Positions 1,197 to 34,433 of a DNA stretch of 64,000 nucleotides are shown here, piece after piece. The first letter of the stretch is position 1, and each line of letters starts with the position of its first letter. Both the position numbers and the translations under genes were made by a program. Source of the stretch: Anaerolineaceae bacterium. Lineage in GTDB: Bacteria > Chloroflexota > Anaerolineae > Anaerolineales > Anaerolineaceae. The notes beneath the pieces are model-generated. The model made no database searches and was not told the origin of the DNA. It saw only the letters and a list, made by a program, of their open reading frames with translations. The DNA is taken from NCBI GenBank assembly GCA_016841525.1, contig JAENYZ010000001.1:372001-436000 (forward strand). Direction: 5' to 3'.

Positions 1197-1898
1197 ATGG
1201 AAAAACAGACGAAACCAGGCAGACTTTATATCGTCGCCACACCCATCGGCAATCCAAAAGACATCACCCTCAGGGCATTGGACGTGCTCAAGAAGGTTGA
1301 TGCTGTCATCTGCGAAGAATTCCGCCAGGGCAGCCGGCTGCTGCATAAATTGGATATTGAAAATGAATTGATCCCCCTCAACGAACACAACGAAGCTGAA
1401 GAAGCGCAAAACATCATGGTGCGTTTAGCTAAAGGCGAGACCATGGCGATCATCTCTGACGCTGGCACCCCGGTGTTCGCTGATCCGGGACAGCACTTAC
1501 TTGAACTGCTTTATCAGATGAAGATCCCTGTTTCACCGGTGCCCGGGCCAGCTTCCCTGACCTCAGCCCTTTCTCTTTGCGATTTTTCCATCGAACGCTT
1601 CGTATTCGCCGGTTTTCCTCCCCGAAAAAGCGAACAGCGCGAGGGATTCCTGGCGAAATATCGCAGCGAATCAGTACCTGTCATCCTGATGGATACACCC
1701 TATCGATTGACTAAACTCCTGGAAGAAGTCACATCAGTATTTGGTAAAAACCAGGACATCCTGCTGGCATGTGACATGACACTGAAGAAAGAAGCTATCT
1801 TTCGCGGTCCCGTTTCAGAAATTTTGCCAAAAGTGTCCGGGCAAAAACGGGAATTCATGCTGATACTCAATATGAACAAAGGCAGAAGGCATCATTAA
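1197..1898 (+). CDS. RsmI-like tetrapyrrole-methylase-fold rRNA methyltransferase (divergent paralogue)
   Basis: 233 aa. It has the RsmI layout: YIVATPIGNPKDITLRAL near the N-terminus, ISDAGTPVFADPG in the middle, VPGPASLTSAL and AGFPPRKSEQR. RsmI uses SAM to 2'-O-methylate C1402 of 16S rRNA. The canonical segment EDTRxTxxLL is changed to EEFRQGSRLL, which sets it apart from the second, canonical RsmI at 9285-9953. An upstream in-frame ATG exists at 1098, but I chose 1197 because homology begins there and a -10 box lies directly before it. One nucleotide separates its stop from the next gene, so it heads a coupled operon of RNA-modification enzymes. The exact target base is inferred; a changed specificity is possible. 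Confidence 0.78.
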   Translation: MEKQTKPGRLYIVATPIGNPKDITLRALDVLKKVDAVICEEFRQGSRLLHKLDIENELIPLNEHNEAEEAQNIMVRLAKGETMAIISDAGTPVFADPGQHLLELLYQMKIPVSPVPGPASLTSALSLCDFSIERFVFAGFPPRKSEQREGFLAKYRSESVPVILMDTPYRLTKLLEEVTSVFGKNQDILLACDMTLKKEAIFRGPVSEILPKVSGQKREFMLILNMNKGRRHH

Positions 1899-1899
1899 G

Positions 1900-2994
1900 A
1901 TGATCAAACCCGAATTATTGAACATCAGGGACAAAACACTGAAACTGCCTGCCTTCCTGCCAGACGCAACCTCCGGTTACGTCCGTGCTGTCGACTCACA
2001 GGATCTTCAGAACGTGAAAATTCAAGCATTGGTGATGAACACATTCCACCTGATGCAAAAACCAGGTTCTAGCACCATCCAGGCTTTCAACGGACTGCAC
2101 CAATTTGCAGACTGGCCCGGCGTGATTGTGACCGACTCAGGCGGGTTTCAAGCCTATTCCCTGATCCATCAATCCGATCAATTTGGCACACTCAGCGACC
2201 GCGGCATTATCTTTCGCCCGGAAGGGAAAAATCGCAAATTCATTCTTTCCCCCGAGAAAAGTGTCCAGCTCCAGGTCAGCTATGATACCGATGTGGTCAT
2301 CTGCCTGGACGATTGCACCCATGTCGATGCTTCCCGGGAGGAACAGGAACTTTCTGTAGAGCGCACCCTGGATTGGGCAGCCCGCTGCAAAAAGGAATAC
2401 CTGCATCAAATGGACCAGCGGCAAGTCGATAATGACAAACGCCCGCTCATCTTCGGCGTCATCCAGGGCGGCGGCTACCCCGATTTGCGGAAAAAATGCG
2501 CAGAGGGCCTTTTGGAAATTGGCTTTGACGGCTTCGGGTACGGAGGTTGGCCGCTGGACTCACAGGGCAATCTCCTGGAGGAAATGGTCTCCCTCACACG
2601 AATTTTGGTGCCGGAGGAATTCACCATGCACGCCCTTGGCATCGGTCACCCCCTCAACCTAAAACGCACTTATGAGTTGGGGTATGTGATCTTCGACTGC
2701 GCCCTTCCCACACGGGATGCGCGCCACGGTCGCCTGATGCGTTATACGGTACCCCCTGGAACAGCTCTTTCCGGGAATAAATGGCTGGAATATGTTTACA
2801 TGCAGGATAAAAAACACATCAAAGACAGCCGTCCAATTTCAGAATATTGCGATTGTCCTGTGTGCTCTCATTACAGCCTGGGCTACCTTCATCACCTCTT
2901 CAAAACGGGGGATTGGCTCTATCAGCGCCTGGCAACCCTGCATAACTTGCGGTTCATGACGCAATTGACAGAACGGCTCCGCAACAATGATTGA
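1900..2994 (+). CDS. tRNA-guanine transglycosylase-like protein (divergent TGT paralogue)
   Basis: 364 aa. TGT enzymes swap guanine for a 7-deazaguanine in RNA. The key residues are present: DSGGFQ with Asp79, the nucleophile Asp266 in FDCALPTRDARHG, and a zinc site C317-x-C319-x2-C322-x25-H348. The bacterial substrate-binding segment GG(L/I)(S/A)VGE is replaced by GGWPLDSQG (about 215-223), and FGVIQGGGY stands for the usual FGIVQGG. It may therefore be a paralogue with a different base or RNA substrate rather than standard Tgt. It starts 1 nt after the RsmI-like gene and its end overlaps the next gene by 8 nt. A YhhQ-type precursor transporter gene lies 5.5 kb downstream, which fits salvage of a 7-deazaguanine. 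Confidence 0.8.
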   Translation: MIKPELLNIRDKTLKLPAFLPDATSGYVRAVDSQDLQNVKIQALVMNTFHLMQKPGSSTIQAFNGLHQFADWPGVIVTDSGGFQAYSLIHQSDQFGTLSDRGIIFRPEGKNRKFILSPEKSVQLQVSYDTDVVICLDDCTHVDASREEQELSVERTLDWAARCKKEYLHQMDQRQVDNDKRPLIFGVIQGGGYPDLRKKCAEGLLEIGFDGFGYGGWPLDSQGNLLEEMVSLTRILVPEEFTMHALGIGHPLNLKRTYELGYVIFDCALPTRDARHGRLMRYTVPPGTALSGNKWLEYVYMQDKKHIKDSRPISEYCDCPVCSHYSLGYLHHLFKTGDWLYQRLATLHNLRFMTQLTERLRNND

Positions 2995-3796
2995 TCGACC
3001 TGACATTGAAAATCTGGTAAAAAAAGTCCAGGCAAACAAAAAATACGAAGCAATCACACCCAAGCTTGTCAGGAGGCTTTCTAAATCTGCAATTGCCAGG
3101 GGGTTGAGCGGAAAATCCGCTGTCAAAGATGTTCGGAATAAATTGCACCAAATCGGCGGCGCATACTTCAAACAGAAGATCGATTATTCTCAATGCCTGA
3201 ATGAGCTCAAAGAAACTGACAAAAGCCTCAACTCTGATCAACTTCAACAATTTTGTGCCAGGATGATGGGCTTGCATGCCTCCACAGCTGAGCGACTGCC
3301 CATCCTTGAGGATTTTTTTAGGACCTGTCTCGAACCGATAGCCCCCGTTAAAAGCATCCTGGATTTAGCCTGCGGATTAAACCCGCTGGCAATCTCATGG
3401 ATGCCTTTACAAACTGGCTTTACCTACCATGCCTGCGATATCTACATGGATATGTTAAGCCTGGTTCAATCCTTTTTCGATCACCTAGGGATTGACGGCA
3501 CGACTGAAGCCTGTGACCTGGTTGGTGAAGTCCCCACAAAACCTGCACAAATTGCCTTCTTGCTCAAATCCATCCCTTGCCTTGAACAGGTCGATAAAGA
3601 TATCGGAATCATGCTTTTAGAAAAAATTCAGGCGGACCATATTCTGGTCTCTTTCCCTGTGCAGAGCCTTGGCGGGCGGAATAAAGGCATGCCAGATTTT
3701 TACCAGGATCATTTCTACGAGATGATCTCGGGCAAAGCCTGGGGGATAAAAAAATTTACTTTTCAAACCGAGTTGGCTTTCCTGGTGACCAAATGA
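2987..3796 (+). CDS. Arm/FmrO-family 16S rRNA (m7G1405-type) methyltransferase, copy 1
   Basis: 269 aa, close in length to ArmA/RmtB/Sgm. It carries the family hallmarks: KKLHQIxxAYF-like region near residues 51-61, HASTAERL at 97-104, the SAM motif LDLACGLNPLA at 125-135, an acidic residue in HACDI at 148-152, FLLKSIPCLEQ at 191-201 and VSFPVQSLGGRNKGM at 221-235. Known members methylate N7 of G1405 in 16S helix 44 and give high-level resistance to 4,6-disubstituted aminoglycosides. All motifs look intact, so activity is likely, but resistance is an inference. It overlaps the TGT-like gene by 8 nt and the second copy by 4 nt (ATGA), showing translational coupling. Confidence 0.82.
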   Translation: MIDRPDIENLVKKVQANKKYEAITPKLVRRLSKSAIARGLSGKSAVKDVRNKLHQIGGAYFKQKIDYSQCLNELKETDKSLNSDQLQQFCARMMGLHASTAERLPILEDFFRTCLEPIAPVKSILDLACGLNPLAISWMPLQTGFTYHACDIYMDMLSLVQSFFDHLGIDGTTEACDLVGEVPTKPAQIAFLLKSIPCLEQVDKDIGIMLLEKIQADHILVSFPVQSLGGRNKGMPDFYQDHFYEMISGKAWGIKKFTFQTELAFLVTK

Positions 3797-4614
3797 TCAC
3801 AATTGATATCGATGTAGATTCGCTGATCAAGCGCATCCTTGAAATGAAAAAATACCGGGGTTCAGGTCTTAACCCGGATACCATCCGTGATCTGATCCTC
3901 CAGGAAGCACCGCATCAAGCCTCATCCAAAAAACTGCTAAAGGCTGTCAAACGCAAACTTCACAATATCGTTGCCCCCTACCTGGGTGAACCGGATTATG
4001 AAAAACTGAGGGATGAGCTCAAACAAATTAAAAACACCACACCTGATTCTCCAGAAATTAGATCATTCTGTGAAAGAGTCCTTTCAGAGCATGCTTCAAC
4101 TTCAGAGCGCCTGCCGTATATGGAAGATTTCTACAATCAGCTATTTCAGCAGACTGGCATCCCTCACACCATACTAGACCTGGCGTGCGGACTGCATCCA
4201 CTGGCTTTGCCATGGATGGGACTGCCCCTCAGCGTCCAATACCATGCTTACGATATCATCCAGCCGCGTGTTGATTTCATCAATGATTTTTTCAAAACAA
4301 TCGGATTGGCACCCCTTGCGGAAAACCGGGATATTTTGGTAAATCCGCCTGAAATTAAAGCGGACCTTGCATTGATTTTCAAAGAAGCCCACCGTATGGA
4401 GAAACGCCAGCCAGGCTGCAGCCGTGGTTTATGGGCAGAACTGGATGTAAAAACCCTGGCAGTCTCACTTCCCACTCAGGACCTTTCAGGGACCCACAGC
4501 CTTTTAGAACAGCACCGTACGCTCGTTCTCGACAACTTGCCTGAGGACCATAGGCTTGAAGAAATCGCTATTGAAAATGAGATTGTCTTTTTGATCAGGA
4601 AAGTCCAGGCTTGA
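3793..4614 (+). CDS. Arm/FmrO-family 16S rRNA methyltransferase, divergent copy 2
   Basis: 273 aa, a tandem paralogue of the preceding gene. HASTSERL (100-107), LDLACGLHPLALPWM (128-142) and HAYDI (151-155) are kept, so SAM binding is expected. The later motifs have diverged: the FLLKxxPxLE segment reads LIFKEAHRMEKRQPG (194-208), and the SLxGxxKGM segment reads DLSGTHSLLEQ (230-240), without the KGM triplet. It may be a partner subunit, a methylase for another base, or a pseudo-enzyme. It overlaps copy 1 by 4 nt and stops 4 nt before the next gene. The family assignment is firm, the activity open. Confidence 0.75.
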   Translation: MITIDIDVDSLIKRILEMKKYRGSGLNPDTIRDLILQEAPHQASSKKLLKAVKRKLHNIVAPYLGEPDYEKLRDELKQIKNTTPDSPEIRSFCERVLSEHASTSERLPYMEDFYNQLFQQTGIPHTILDLACGLHPLALPWMGLPLSVQYHAYDIIQPRVDFINDFFKTIGLAPLAENRDILVNPPEIKADLALIFKEAHRMEKRQPGCSRGLWAELDVKTLAVSLPTQDLSGTHSLLEQHRTLVLDNLPEDHRLEEIAIENEIVFLIRKVQA

Positions 4615-4618
4615 GATC

Positions 4619-6082
4619 ATGGCGCTTGACACATCCAATAAGCTCAATCAGAGTTTGCAAAGATTTTCACATATTCTCTCACAGGCGGATATTCAAGGCC
4701 TTCTCGATATTCAAGAAGGACCCCTTCATACAGGCATCCGCTTAAATCCCCTAAAAACATCACCGGATGAAGCAATTAGAGATTTAAGCGAGCGCTATGG
4801 TTGGAAGATTGAACCGATTCACTTCTGCAATAATGCTTGGAAAATCATCAATGCCGAAACCTCGCCTGGCGGAACGATTGAGCATCGCATGGGTGCTTAT
4901 TATCTGCAGGACGCTGCATCAATGGTGCCGGTAAGCTTGTTTGAGATCAATGAACCCGAGCCATTAATTCTTGATCTGGCAGCCTCTCCGGGTGGAAAAA
5001 CGACCCATTTGATTGACCGATCAGGGGATAAGGGCTTAATTATTGCAAACGACGGCAGCCAGGGACGAATCACGGCATTGCGTGCTGTGCTAGAGACGTG
5101 GGGAGGCATCAACCAGGTGATCACCAACTACCCGGGAGAATCCTTTGGGGGATGGTTCCCGGAAACTTTTGATATCGTGCTTCTGGATGCCCCTTGTAGT
5201 ATGGAAAATTTGCGTCCGACCCCTAACCATCCGCTTCGAGAAACAACCACCGATGAACGTCTGCGATTGAAAGAACGGCAAATCCAATTGTTAACCAGCG
5301 GTTTACAAGCGCTTAAAACTGGCGGGCAGCTTGTTTACGCAACCTGCTCCCTTGCTCCGGAAGAGGACGAAGCTGTCATAAATGCCCTATTCGATAAATA
5401 TCCAGAGACTTTTAAAATCGAGGATGTGTCAAGCCAGTTTCAATTCAAGGCACCCGGTTTAACAGCCTTTGATGGCGAAACCTATCACCCACAGCTAATC
5501 AAAGCCCTGCGACTCTGGCCGCATCTGACGAATATGTCTGGTTTTTTCTGCACATTAATAACGAAACTTCGAGGGATGGATACAAACAGAGAAACACCAC
5601 CCAATCGGGACTTCTCAGCAACGCACCTTGAACCGCTGAAGAAAAATAACAAAACTCAAATTCATGATCAAGTAGAAACAAATTATGGCCTGGAGCTGGA
5701 GAATATCTTAGCAGCGTTTAGTTTAGAATTGTTCCAACGGTTTGACCAATTGTTCTTGATCCCCCAAAAATACACGGAGCACTTCATCACCCTGCCCTTT
5801 GAATACATTGGCATGCCCCTGGGTCAGTGGCACCAGAACATACTGATCCCTTCGCATACCTTTGCCAGCCGTTTTGGCACAGAATTTACCCGAGGGAAAA
5901 TTGTCATCGAAGAATCCCTTGTCGGGTTGTGGATTTCAGGCCGGGATATACGCCACCCACAGACTGAACTGACGCCAAAGGGTCAGTATTTATTGGTTAA
6001 TGATCTAGATGGAAGAAATTTAGGCTTGGGAAAATTGCTGCCAAAACGGCTGCGAAACATGCTCCCGAGAGGGCTAATCTAA
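4619..6082 (+). CDS. RsmF/NOP2-family rRNA m5C methyltransferase with C-terminal RNA-binding domain
   Basis: 487 aa. Residues about 60-110 include YYLQDAASMVPV, typical of the NOL1/NOP2/Sun family. The SAM loop LDLAASPGGKTTHL is near 118-131, motif IV DAPCS near 188-193 and the catalytic motif ATCSLAPEEDE near 240-250; both cysteines needed for m5C formation are present. After DAPCS the usual GEG is MEN. The C-terminal third (about 370-487) resembles the PUA-like extension of RsmF/YebU. RsmF makes m5C1407 in 16S helix 44, two bases from the Arm target. It closes the operon and overlaps the convergent plsC by 9 bp. Confidence 0.82.
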   Translation: MALDTSNKLNQSLQRFSHILSQADIQGLLDIQEGPLHTGIRLNPLKTSPDEAIRDLSERYGWKIEPIHFCNNAWKIINAETSPGGTIEHRMGAYYLQDAASMVPVSLFEINEPEPLILDLAASPGGKTTHLIDRSGDKGLIIANDGSQGRITALRAVLETWGGINQVITNYPGESFGGWFPETFDIVLLDAPCSMENLRPTPNHPLRETTTDERLRLKERQIQLLTSGLQALKTGGQLVYATCSLAPEEDEAVINALFDKYPETFKIEDVSSQFQFKAPGLTAFDGETYHPQLIKALRLWPHLTNMSGFFCTLITKLRGMDTNRETPPNRDFSATHLEPLKKNNKTQIHDQVETNYGLELENILAAFSLELFQRFDQLFLIPQKYTEHFITLPFEYIGMPLGQWHQNILIPSHTFASRFGTEFTRGKIVIEESLVGLWISGRDIRHPQTELTPKGQYLLVNDLDGRNLGLGKLLPKRLRNMLPRGLI

Positions 6083-7755: not shown

Positions 7756-8499
7756 CTAAAGCTCGCCCAAATCATGAAGTACAACTGCCGGAAAAACAAT
7801 CGCAGCGGTCTCCATTCGCAAAATCCGGTCACCCAGTGTCACCACCCGGCATCCAGACTCCTTCGCCAAATGAATTTCCTCCTCAGAAAATCCACCTTCG
7901 GGTCCAACATAAAGAGCGATGCTGCTGCCGTCGAACTCCTCAAGGCTTTGCGAGACCTGAACCTGGTTTGCATCATCTTCTTCCCAGGCAATCAAGGACA
8001 GACTGGTGGTTGCAGCACTTGAATTCAAACAAGCCTCAAATTCCTGCGGCTGATTTAGCTTCGGTAAGCGTCCCCGATGAGACTGTTCCGCTGCTTCCTG
8101 GATGATCCTTTCCCATCGTACCAATTTCTTTTCTGATAAGTCTGCGGACTGAACCAGGGTTCGTGAGGAAATGAATGGCGAAAACTCAGAAATGCCAATT
8201 TCTGTCCCCTTTTGCAAAATCCATTCGAACTTGTCCCGGCTTGTCATGCCGAAACACAACGTAATTTTCACGGCAGGCTCCGTTGAAGCAACTTCTTGAG
8301 TCATCACTTGTCCTATAACCGATCTCTTCTCTAAATCCACTTCAAGGGATACGCGATAAAGGCAGCCCTGGTTGTCCAGCACTTCCACAATATCGCCTGA
8401 TCGCAATCGCAGCACAGAAATGATCTGGTGTTCAACAGTTTCAGGAAAATTAACACGCTCATCTGATATTAGATACGGCTCTAAAAAGAAACGGTTCAT
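7756..8499 (-). CDS. rsmE: 16S rRNA m3U1498 methyltransferase RsmE
   Basis: 247 aa. It has an N-terminal PUA-like domain (MNRFFLEPYLI and HQIISVLRLRSGD) and a SPOUT-fold C-terminal domain with GPEGGFSEEE (about 198-207) and LGDRILRMETA (about 222-232), the knotted SAM site. RsmE methylates N3 of U1498 in the 16S decoding region. It is the last of several predicted helix-44 enzymes gathered in the first 10 kb. It is divergent from the YhhQ gene (48-bp gap). Confidence 0.92.
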   Translation of the reverse strand: MNRFFLEPYLISDERVNFPETVEHQIISVLRLRSGDIVEVLDNQGCLYRVSLEVDLEKRSVIGQVMTQEVASTEPAVKITLCFGMTSRDKFEWILQKGTEIGISEFSPFISSRTLVQSADLSEKKLVRWERIIQEAAEQSHRGRLPKLNQPQEFEACLNSSAATTSLSLIAWEEDDANQVQVSQSLEEFDGSSIALYVGPEGGFSEEEIHLAKESGCRVVTLGDRILRMETAAIVFPAVVLHDLGEL

Positions 8500-8547: not shown

Positions 8548-9279
8548 ATGAATCAAGAAAAAGCAAAATCGCAAATAGTGGGTTTCAAATTCCTCGATAT
8601 TATCATGGTGACTTATGTCACCGTGCTCGTCCTGAGCAACATTGCATCATCAGCCAAAATCATCGATTGGGGCGTCAGCATTGGAAGAATCCCTTTAAGC
8701 TTTGATGCTGGTACGCTGCTCTTCCCAATCAGCTACATTCTGGGCGATGTTATCACCGAAGTTTACGGTTTCAAACGCTCCCGCAGAATCATCTGGATTG
8801 GATTTGGAACGCTCATCTTCAGCGCGCTTGTATTTTGGCTTGTTCAAGTTCTGCCGGGCGAAGCCACATGGCAAAACCAGGTCGGGCAGGAAACATACAA
8901 CCAGATTCTAGGTAGCATGAGTTCTGGCGGCATCATCCTTGCCAGCCTCGCCGGCTATTTCGCAGGCTCCTTTTCAAACGCCATACTGATGTCTTTATTG
9001 AAATTCCTGACTAAGGGCAAACATCTCTGGACCAGAACCATCGGCAGTACGATCGTTGGGGAAGCTGTTGATACTTTTACTTTCATTTTTGTCGCTTCCC
9101 TCGTCGGCGTTTTTCCATGGAGCCTCTTCTGGAGCCTGACGATCACCAATTATATCTTCAAAGTCACCTTTGAAACCCTTGTCACACCCTTCACCTACCT
9201 GCTTGTCAACAATCTTAAGCGTTCTGAAGGGATCGATGTCTTTGAAGAGCCGCAAAACCTGAACCCATTTAAATTTTAA
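8548..9279 (+). CDS. yhhQ: Queuosine precursor transporter (YhhQ/VUT, DUF165 family)
   Basis: 243 aa integral membrane protein with about six hydrophobic segments. The family signature is DAGTLLFPISYILGDVITEV (about 54-73) followed by YGFKRSRRIIWIGFG. E. coli YhhQ takes up preQ0/preQ1 for queuosine synthesis, so this gene suggests salvage of a 7-deazaguanine precursor, in line with the TGT-like gene at 1900. It is convergent with rsmI (5-bp gap). Confidence 0.87.
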   Translation: MNQEKAKSQIVGFKFLDIIMVTYVTVLVLSNIASSAKIIDWGVSIGRIPLSFDAGTLLFPISYILGDVITEVYGFKRSRRIIWIGFGTLIFSALVFWLVQVLPGEATWQNQVGQETYNQILGSMSSGGIILASLAGYFAGSFSNAILMSLLKFLTKGKHLWTRTIGSTIVGEAVDTFTFIFVASLVGVFPWSLFWSLTITNYIFKVTFETLVTPFTYLLVNNLKRSEGIDVFEEPQNLNPFKF

Positions 9280-9284
9280 AGAAC

Positions 9285-9953
9285 TTAATCTCTTTTGCCT
9301 TCAATAACCACAGAATACTCACCCCGGGGCTGTTCTGCTTTAAATCTCTCAATTAAGTCACTCAATTTTCCGCGATAAAGGCTTTCAAATTTCTTCGTCA
9401 GATCGTTTGCCACAACCGCTTCACGATCACCGAGCACAGCAAGGGCGTCTTCTAAAAAGGCTTGAATGCGATAAGGGCTTTCATAAAAAATTTGAGTATG
9501 GGCTGACTCCCCATCTTCAGCGATAAAACGCTGGCGAGCGCCTGACTTGCGCGGGGGAAACCCTTTGAAAGTAAAGCTGTGTGCAGGTAAGCCAGAAAGA
9601 GTCAGTGCCATAATCACGGCTGATGGTCCCGGGATTGCGGTAACCGTGATGTCATTATCAATCGCAGCCCGAACAAGGGAATAGCCCGGGTCAGAAATTG
9701 CCGGTGTGCCGGCGTTGGTCACAACAGCAATCGATTCGCCTTCAAGCATCTTCTCAATCAGCTTGGGGACAACTTTCTTCTCGTTGAAAGCATGATAACT
9801 TTTCTGCGGTTTGTGGATATCGTAATGATTCAATAAAATGGAGGTCTTGCGAGTGTCCTCACTGGCAATTAAATCAACAGCACGTAAAACCTCTAAAGCG
9901 CGCATTGTGATATCGCCAAGATTGCCAATCGGTGTTGAAACAAGGTAAAGCAA
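9285..9953 (-). CDS. rsmI: 16S rRNA 2'-O-ribose C1402 methyltransferase RsmI
   Basis: 222 aa. It has the full canonical motif set: [72 protein letters not shown] and [15 protein letters not shown]. It is therefore the likely housekeeping RsmI, in contrast to the divergent paralogue at 1197. It starts 3 nt after the stop of the HAD gene, so the two are probably cotranscribed. Confidence 0.92.
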
Positions 9954-34357: not shown

Positions 34358-34433
34358 GCCCCCGTAGCTCAATGGACAGAGTACCTGACTTCGAATCAGT
34401 AGGTTGCGCGTTCGAGTCGCGCCGGGGGCGCCA
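34358..34433 (+). tRNA. tRNA-Arg (anticodon TCG)
   Basis: 76 nt including encoded CCA. The acceptor GCCCCCG/CGGGGGC, D stem GCTC/GAGT, T stem GCGCG/CGCGC and T loop TTCGAGT are all present. The anticodon loop CTTCGAA gives TCG (34391-34393), reading CGA. The first pair of the anticodon stem is a C-U mismatch. An integrase and accessory genes follow directly, so this is the likely integration site. Confidence 0.93.

Follow-up and report, generated by a model that had tools for sequence, protein, structure and literature searches.

A guanine transglycosylase paralog accompanies FmrO/Rmt-family 16S rRNA methyltransferase homologues in Chloroflexota and on resistance plasmids

A five-gene operon of RNA-modification enzymes

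The 64,000-nucleotide stretch of an Anaerolineaceae genome analysed here (the window) carries five plus-strand genes at positions 1197–6082 that encode an RsmI paralog, a guanine transglycosylase paralog (TGT2), two FmrO/Rmt paralogs, and an RsmF-like protein. Recomputed from the coordinates, their junctions are a 1-nt gap, an 8-nt overlap, a 4-nt overlap, and a 4-nt gap, just as the first-pass annotation had reported; its placing of RsmE 1.7 kb away (1.67 kb from the operon end) likewise holds. That annotation had not named gene 2 as a TGT, nor had it named the transporter and the second RsmI listed below.

1197..1898, plus strand: RsmI2, an RsmI paralog of the 2′-O-methyltransferase family for C1402 (TIGR00096, 189 bits; cut-off 167.9)
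1900..2994, plus strand: TGT2, a guanine transglycosylase paralog (PF01702, E 4.5e-89)
2987..3796, plus strand: RmtA, a homologue of the FmrO/Rmt-family 16S G1405-N7 methyltransferases (PF07091, E 2.4e-47, 162 bits)
3793..4614, plus strand: RmtB paralog, the second FmrO homologue (PF07091, E 3.5e-39, 135 bits)
4619..6082, plus strand: RsmF-like m5C methyltransferase (C1407 family) with a weak PUA-like C-terminus (PF01189, E 4e-35; PF17125, E 4.8e-11)
7756..8499, minus strand: RsmE (U1498), a neighbour outside the operon (PF04452, E 4.5e-48)
8548..9279, plus strand: queuosine-precursor transporter, Vut_1/YhhQ (TIGR00697 over cut-off; synteny in the family)
9285..9953, minus strand: second RsmI, of canonical type (TIGR00096, 230 bits)

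By family, the 16S targets of these enzymes are C1402 (RsmI and RsmH), G1405 (Rmt), C1407 (RsmF), and U1498 (RsmE). RsmI2, for which an in-frame ATG is also present at 1098, passes the TIGR00096 equivalog test and is one of two RsmI copies in the neighbourhood. The RsmF-like protein exceeds the cut-offs of PF01189 and PF17125, scores 24.0 bits against PF13636 (cut-off 27.6), and reaches 268 bits (E 9e-80) against the equivalog model NF008898, far under its cut-off of 588.

Both FmrO copies fall under the NF000466 cut-off of 250 (RmtA, 221 bits; RmtB paralog, 170 bits). RmtA has an intact FmrO domain, SAM motif, conserved G-M and Y, and SLGGRNKGM loop, and matches Sgm (3lcu) at E 1.2e-39. While its SAM motif and substrate loop resemble those of the Rmt/FmrO/Sgm m7G1405 methyltransferases, the genes described here differ from that group in being chromosomal, in sharing an operon with TGT2, and in including a second paralog with an altered loop. 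In this RmtB paralog the SAM motif is largely retained; within the substrate loop, G246 and M247 (Sgm numbering) are replaced in all ten members of its clade and Y251 is kept in two of the ten. Given this loss of conserved residues, two working G1405 methylases are unlikely, and to judge from the sequence the RmtB paralog is likely either retargeted or a non-catalytic partner.

Five further genomes among the nine sampled in the family (own genome included) and one named Anaerolineaceae genome carry the full five-gene order, which argues that the operon is not a chance arrangement. The check proposed by the first-pass annotation, a search for the order among relatives, thus shows it to be conserved within the family, with a TGT2–Rmt core spanning the phylum, and rules out an order unique to this contig. 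A scan of named genomes yielded two loci that are TGT2 by motif (L101 and L102) among the 80 listed; in five family members, as well as at L101, TGT2 is preceded by RsmI2.

A guanine transglycosylase with an altered base pocket

TGT2 retains D79, D137, Q189, and D266 as well as the zinc ligands C317/C319/C322/H348. In Zymomonas mobilis numbering, D102, D280, D156, Q203, G229, G230, C318, C323, and H349 are kept in all 49 full-length TGT2 proteins, and the zinc-site residue C320 in 47. By family, catalytic aspartates, the guanine-binding residues D156/Q203/G229-G230, and zinc site, TGT2 thus resembles the bacterial TGT that acts on tRNA G34 (Z. mobilis, 1enu). It departs from that enzyme in its Rmt gene neighbours, in V45D and K52R (both in 49/49), in an unconserved Glu235, and in the pocket, where W217-P218 stands in place of Leu231-Ala232, the pair beside position 7 of the guanine. 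Trp-Pro occupies this pair in every full-length TGT2 but in none of 21 ordinary TGTs (TGT1), which carry L/V at 231, A/S at 232, and E at 235 in 20 cases each; two truncated TGT2 copies linked to rmtE2 have Phe-Pro. TGT2 therefore lacks the Leu/Val231-Ala/Ser232-Glu235 peptide-switch feature, its position 235 being variable. According to an excerpt of the structural work on the Zymomonas enzyme (PMC3660597), the main-chain amide of Ala232 contacts guanine N7 through a water, and the 231/232 peptide flips, together with Glu235, for preQ1. The counterparts of Zymomonas R286 and R289 are likewise retained.

With 292.8 bits, TGT2 falls under the TIGR00430 equivalog cut-off of 306.75. The genome encodes another TGT (G000:C5:808478-809434), 33% identical to TGT2, and this second copy, along with the differing pocket, rules out gene 2 as the sole ordinary TGT. 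A clean TGT2 clade was not upheld: its support was 0.29 in a midpoint-rooted tree, and an outgroup-rooted tree gave a 52-member clade (support 0.987) that unites all 51 TGT2 sequences with one CPR TGT (L104), which has a GGYAV motif and no Rmt found, and which pairs with L011 at 0.92. An AlphaFold model was poor (pLDDT 56.5, three-row alignment) and was left out of the evidence. The DpdA DNA-guanine transglycosylases (solved structure 7ui4) are a known case in which the TGT family took on a different nucleic acid as its target; DpdA matches TGT2 weakly (NF041059, E 8e-4) and is much more distant from it than bacterial TGT is.

TGT2 and Rmt on chromosomes and resistance plasmids

Across 400 genomes of the phylum Chloroflexota, FmrO/Rmt was present in 76, spread over 18 family labels, and TGT2 was seen in 70, every one of them among the 76. 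The two genes lie on the same strand within 500 nt of each other in 58 of the 70 genomes, and farther apart or on different contigs in the other 12. No TGT2 without Rmt was seen among the matches listed (down to ~196 bits), while no TGT2 was seen in six Rmt genomes, in two of which the Rmt match reaches the contig end. Distances in the TGT2 and Rmt trees correlate (Mantel r 0.79, n = 43; 0 of 5000 permutations as high). With the chosen set of query enzymes, RsmI was found at 16 of 33 chromosomal TGT2 loci read and not at the other 17; of 78 other TGT loci listed for comparison, none had Rmt and one had RsmI. At some of the pairs the neighbouring RsmI is canonical. A TGT2–Rmt–RsmI arrangement is also present in a MAG labelled Firmicutes.

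The presence of RsmE, two RsmI copies, and a queuosine-precursor transporter in the same neighbourhood would fit an ordinary clustering of RNA-modification genes that have no common target. We regard this as very unlikely, since the co-occurrence is nested and includes unlinked cases, the two gene trees correlate, and the same pair is found on plasmids of Enterobacterales.

A further TGT besides TGT2 was found, by match counts, in 69 of the 70 genomes, the exception being G337, and TGT2 is thus not the tRNA enzyme by default. It could still act on tRNA, at another anticodon or position, and be co-inherited with Rmt through one shared translational phenotype: TGT2 belongs to the TGT family, whose characterised members act on tRNA or DNA, and it keeps the R286/R289 equivalents. 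The additional TGT, the rRNA enzymes for C1402, G1405, and C1407 that our query set placed around the pair, and the lack of a solitary TGT2 among the matches listed count against such a role, which we judge rather unlikely. A QueF match (E ≤ 1e-10) was obtained in just 36 of the 70 TGT2 genomes and none in the own genome, ruling out that TGT2 needs its own preQ1 synthesis; the transporter at 8548..9279 is, from its sequence family, a possible supplier of a 7-deazaguanine base.

On resistance plasmids, including those of Enterobacterales, we found the arrangements RsmH-TGT2-RmtG, TGT2-RmtD, TGT2-RmtE2, and TGT2-x-RmtB2. The rmtG locus reads RsmH-TGT2-RmtG-RsmI fragment, an operon already in print (PMC9311965), and the gene beside rmtG has likewise been reported (part of PMC3904158). 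Searches of the literature for a link between TGT2 and Rmt listed no paper concerning it, a study of phage DNA being among those listed. Like the operon in the window, the Klebsiella plasmid rmtG operon has a Trp-Pro TGT2 (44% identical) overlapping the rmt gene and C1402-family genes on both sides; it differs in having RsmH upstream instead of RsmI, and RsmI as a fragment only, and no RsmF was found in it. The rmtE2-linked TGT2 was truncated in both plasmid records opened, which argues that TGT2 is dispensable for resistance there.

The plasmids raise the possibility of an intrinsic aminoglycoside-tolerance cassette, in which the phenotype comes from Rmt only and the other enzymes restore fitness after G1405 methylation. 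As excerpted from PMC9311965, acquired Rmt enzymes confer high-level resistance, and such 16S methylation is the intrinsic self-protection of drug-producing actinomycetes. TGT2 travels with rmtB2, rmtD, rmtE2, and rmtG alike, yet the wide chromosomal distribution, over 18 family labels, resembles that of a standing function, and we deem the cassette improbable.

A candidate base exchange in helix 44

Members of the C1402, G1405, and C1407 families recur around the TGT2–Rmt pair—RsmI, Rmt, and RsmF, and RsmH on plasmids—which supports the helix-44 theme of the first-pass annotation; the two G1405-family enzymes of the operon are unlikely both to be working methylases. Co-occurrence alone cannot name the target RNA of TGT2. 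In all 22 genomes with a 16S match (14 TGT2-positive, one Rmt-only, seven negative; 30 searched, eight giving no match), helix 44 (1400–1408) reads CGCCCGTCA; an altered sequence as a target mark is thereby ruled out, positive and negative genomes being the same. The context of G1405 is C-G-U inside a helix; eukaryal TGT requires U-G-U in an anticodon loop (PMC8136771).

Starting from the observed gene order, co-occurrence, correlated gene trees, catalytic residues, and pocket change, we infer the RNA target, the nucleotide, and the incoming base. Our preferred reading, held with about even confidence, is that the operon would be a decoding-site modification set with the Rmt–TGT2 pair at its core: TGT2, its base pocket rebuilt, would most likely swap a helix-44 guanine for a 7-deazaguanine-type base, and the RsmI, RsmF-like or, on plasmids, RsmH enzymes would complete the neighbouring modifications. 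The leading candidate is G1405, as the sole guanine between the targets of RsmI/RsmH (C1402) and RsmF (C1407) and the base on which Rmt acts.

Since 7-deazaguanine lacks the N7 that Rmt methylates, both modifications cannot mark the same final base. A bolder reading, which we hold only tentatively and as rather unlikely, is a two-step replacement, in an order that is itself conjectural: once methylated at N7 by Rmt, the base of G1405 would leave readily, and TGT2 would then excise the m7G and put in a 7-deazaguanine. The Trp-Pro pocket would have lost its reading of an unmethylated N7 and could stack against the positively charged m7G.

The same enzymes might instead make methylation reversible, with TGT2 as an eraser that takes out the m7G1405 made by Rmt and restores guanine. 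It is well established chemically that m7G leaves more readily than G. The amide donor lost at Pro218, judged against the contact described in the excerpt of PMC3660597, fits an N7-methylated leaving base. The Pro218 change also removes the contact for the incoming guanine, however, and it would be strange for a single operon to encode both writer and eraser. We know of no precedent and see little chance that an eraser is the answer.

If the two-step model is true, it would be, to our knowledge, the first transglycosylation of ribosomal RNA, and the clinical genes rmtB2, rmtD, rmtE2, and rmtG would be first steps of this pathway that have become separated from their operon. For no fewer than four acquired types (B2, D, E2, and G), the linkage to TGT2 points to operons like the present one. 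This pairing on chromosomes and clinical resistance plasmids suggests that an exchange of bases in the core of the ribosome has so far gone unrecognised, a question open to test in cultivable, non-pathogenic bacteria. Should TGT2 act on 16S rRNA, base exchange would join the ways in which ribosomes are modified, and it would become visible what one class of pan-aminoglycoside-resistance enzymes is natively for.

The TGT2–Rmt pair in the operon and across the phylum

Re-reading of the window reproduced exactly the operon coordinates (1197–6082, forward strand) and gene junctions (1-nt gap, 8-nt overlap, 4-nt overlap and 4-nt gap) of the first-pass annotation. From 5′ to 3′, the genes encode an RsmI paralog (RsmI2), a tRNA-guanine transglycosylase (TGT), two FmrO/Rmt-family proteins (RmtA and RmtB) and an RsmF-like protein. 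The transglycosylase had gone unmentioned in the earlier reasoning; since the genome encodes a second TGT elsewhere (contig C5, 808478–809434; 33% identical), we named the operon copy TGT2. By PF07091 profile search, this genome has two FmrO genes, both in the operon.

The five-gene order is complete in six of nine sampled family members (the window's genome, G192, G337, G283, G304 and G349), with MurJ upstream wherever the stretch reaches (that of G304 ends short of it). It is also complete in Anaerolineaceae bacterium UBA1415 (L101), the named relative from which the phylum is taken to be Chloroflexota. In G104, RmtA and RmtB are separated by genes for a histidine kinase and a response regulator (L037:9205–10963; ORFs read by eye), and no RsmI was found in the stretch read; in G168, Rmt adjoins the RsmF-like gene. 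No Rmt was seen in G208, one of the nine family members.

The core of the operon is the TGT2–Rmt pair. In our 400-genome phylum set, PF07091 was present in 76 genomes (18 family labels), and a TGT2-type match (46–100% identity or a clear fragment) in 69 among the matches listed; G301, whose TGT2 was recognised at its locus (L016, 42% identity), makes 70. All 70 fall inside the 76 Rmt genomes (Fisher's exact p = 1e-71, common descent ignored) among the matches listed, which reach down to about 196 bits, such that short fragments in Rmt-negative genomes could escape. Among the same matches, Rmt occurs without TGT2 in six genomes (G053, G107, G168, G228, G274 and G377), with the Rmt match reaching the contig end in G107 and G274. 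No Rmt was found in the 88 genomes lacking a TGT match at E≤1e-20. In 58 of the 70 genomes, TGT2 and Rmt are no more than 500 nt apart, always on the same strand (TGT2 first in 48, Rmt first in 10); in the other 12 they are more distant or on separate contigs, yet both present. Judged by match counts (three matches where TGT2 was split), 69 of the 70 TGT2 genomes carry one or more additional TGTs, the exception being G337 (95% complete). Tree distances of TGT2 and Rmt correlate (Mantel r 0.79 over 43 loci, reached by 0 of 5000 permutations; 0.76 over the 40 chromosomal loci), as expected for co-inherited genes and, alone, no proof of interaction.

Active-site residues of TGT2 and the two Rmt copies

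We compared 49 full-length TGT2 sequences (three from plasmids; shorter pieces L004, L025/L079, L058 and L059 excluded) with 21 ordinary phylum TGTs and the Zymomonas row, whose numbering is used here. Neither set varies at D102, S103, D156, Q203, G229, G230, D280, R286 or R289, and the zinc ligands are kept in TGT2, but C320 is missing in 2 of 49. Positions 231–232 are Trp-Pro in all 49 TGT2 and likewise in L101 and L102. Ordinary TGTs have Leu/Val at the first of these positions and Ala/Ser at the second (each in 20/21); Glu235, kept in 20/21 of them, varies in TGT2. Two truncated rmtE2-linked copies have Phe-Pro, arguing that the proline is stricter than the tryptophan. From these residues, TGT2 is predicted to be an intact enzyme whose pocket has been remodelled. 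In Zymomonas TGT, the backbone amide of Ala232 reaches guanine N7 via a water molecule (PMC3660597). Because a proline in this place lacks the amide hydrogen, such a contact is impossible in TGT2; its loss would be expected for a leaving base whose N7 is not free (m7G, for example) or for a pocket fixed for one 7-substituted base.

A divergent CPR TGT from candidate division WWE3 (RIFOXYC1_FULL_40_10; L104:4980–6029) combines a TGT2-like 'LPDAT' start with a GGYAV pocket and, by eye, has D at position 45 without Trp-Pro. One tree places it with TGT2. An RsmI gene, transcribed divergently, lies close by, but no Rmt was found; this TGT may be an intermediate form.

RmtA keeps all residues conserved at ≥93% among its relatives in the alignment. 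Of the ten sequences that make up the RmtB clade (window, families f1 and f9, L101), G246 and M247 (Sgm numbering) are replaced in 10/10, P209 and Y251 in 8/10 each and L211 in 7/10; the equivalent loop residues of RmtC reportedly matter for G1405 recognition. RmtB is probably a non-catalytic or retargeted partner. Separately, family f9 has a degenerate RmtB paralog directly before RsmE (U1498), away from TGT2 (L042:6970–8530, L043:6976–8572).

Helix 44, neighbouring genes and base supply

The 16S segment CGCCCGTCA, which we take to be positions 1400–1408 (E. coli numbers), is identical in all 22 genomes read (14 TGT2-positive, one Rmt-only, seven negative); G1405 is therefore available as a target, and no mark within this segment sets the TGT2-positive genomes apart. 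R286 and R289, presumably reading the base after G34, are kept in TGT2, and V45 and K52, presumably near the base before it, are replaced by D and R in 49/49. PMC8136771 gives U33-G34-U35 as the tRNA target of the eukaryal enzyme; the context of G1405 is C-G-U instead of U-G-U. The kept arginines together with the changed positions 45 and 52 would fit such a C-G-U site, but the D at position 45 is shared by L104, which has no Trp-Pro.

The neighbouring genes point to helix 44. A tblastn survey with a chosen enzyme set found RsmI in 16 of 33 chromosomal TGT2 loci, six of them the window's close kin, and in two Rmt loci (L074, L077) whose stretch holds no TGT2. Outside the close kin, RsmI lies directly upstream of TGT2 in seven of ten RsmI loci (L045, L062, L064, L065, L068, L078 and L079), the best match there being the canonical-type copy; in L102 (a MAG named Firmicutes bacterium ADurb.Bin153), TGT2 and Rmt overlap by 4 nt with RsmI just downstream. 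Searched with the plasmid RsmH, the chromosomal loci surveyed gave no match. As a control, 78 other TGT loci among the matches listed from named genomes (L103–L180, many with short flanks and from other phyla) yielded no Rmt and one RsmI (E≤1e-4). In family f9, an RsmF-like gene (only 27% identity) adjoins TGT2 in opposite orientation (L073:5497–6897, L075:6174–7595).

One further gene of the window may bear on base supply:

8548–9279: queuosine-precursor transporter, position kept in the family

QueF matched at E≤1e-10 in 36 of 70 TGT2 genomes, so that TGT2 cannot everywhere rely on preQ1 made by the cell itself; there was no QueF match in the window's genome, G192, G337 or G104. Salvage of a base for TGT2 is possible. 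Further along, G+C drops from 0.44–0.49 to 0.33–0.40 over 36000–64000, shortly after a tRNA-Arg gene (34358–34433); this stretch could be an inserted island.

TGT2 on resistance plasmids

A tblastn search of 72,556 plasmid records with TGT2 matched 68. Among the 60 of these listed, at least 16, at 41–49% identity, were taken as the TGT2 kind, and the remaining 44 reached 30–36%. Six regions were examined. The rmtG plasmid has overlapping RsmH-TGT2-RmtG followed by an RsmI fragment, the Providencia rmtB2 plasmid TGT2-metallophosphoesterase-RmtB2 in one direction (metallophosphoesterase at L056:5125–5934), the rmtD2 and rmtD1 plasmids TGT2-RmtD with an RsmH fragment upstream, and both rmtE2 records RmtE2 preceded by a TGT2 that lacks its beginning. 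In seven of the other ten TGT2-kind records, rmtG was noted under the match.

Parts of this arrangement are published: the review PMC9311965 describes an operon in which rmtG stands with rsmH, tgt and 'rsmL', and PMC3904158 reports that in strain Kp13 a gene for a tRNA ribosyltransferase immediately precedes rmtG. PMC10132066 (RmtE) and PMC10536106 (16S-RMTase spread) do not contain the words tgt, tRNA or Chloroflexi, and the accessible open-licence literature yielded no TGT2–Rmt link across Rmt types or to Chloroflexota, a weak negative.

The first-pass proposal that the operon is aimed at the decoding centre (RsmI at C1402, Arm/FmrO at G1405, RsmF at C1407) is partly supported, with RsmI, RsmH and RsmF-like genes recurring around the TGT2–Rmt pair. 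That TGT2 and Rmt act jointly on the 16S decoding site is, in our estimate, an evenly balanced proposition; a two-step replacement of m7G, by Rmt and then TGT2, seems unlikely. What is truly new here is that one TGT subfamily is tied to 16S-methyltransferase genes, on resistance plasmids as well as in the phylum studied.
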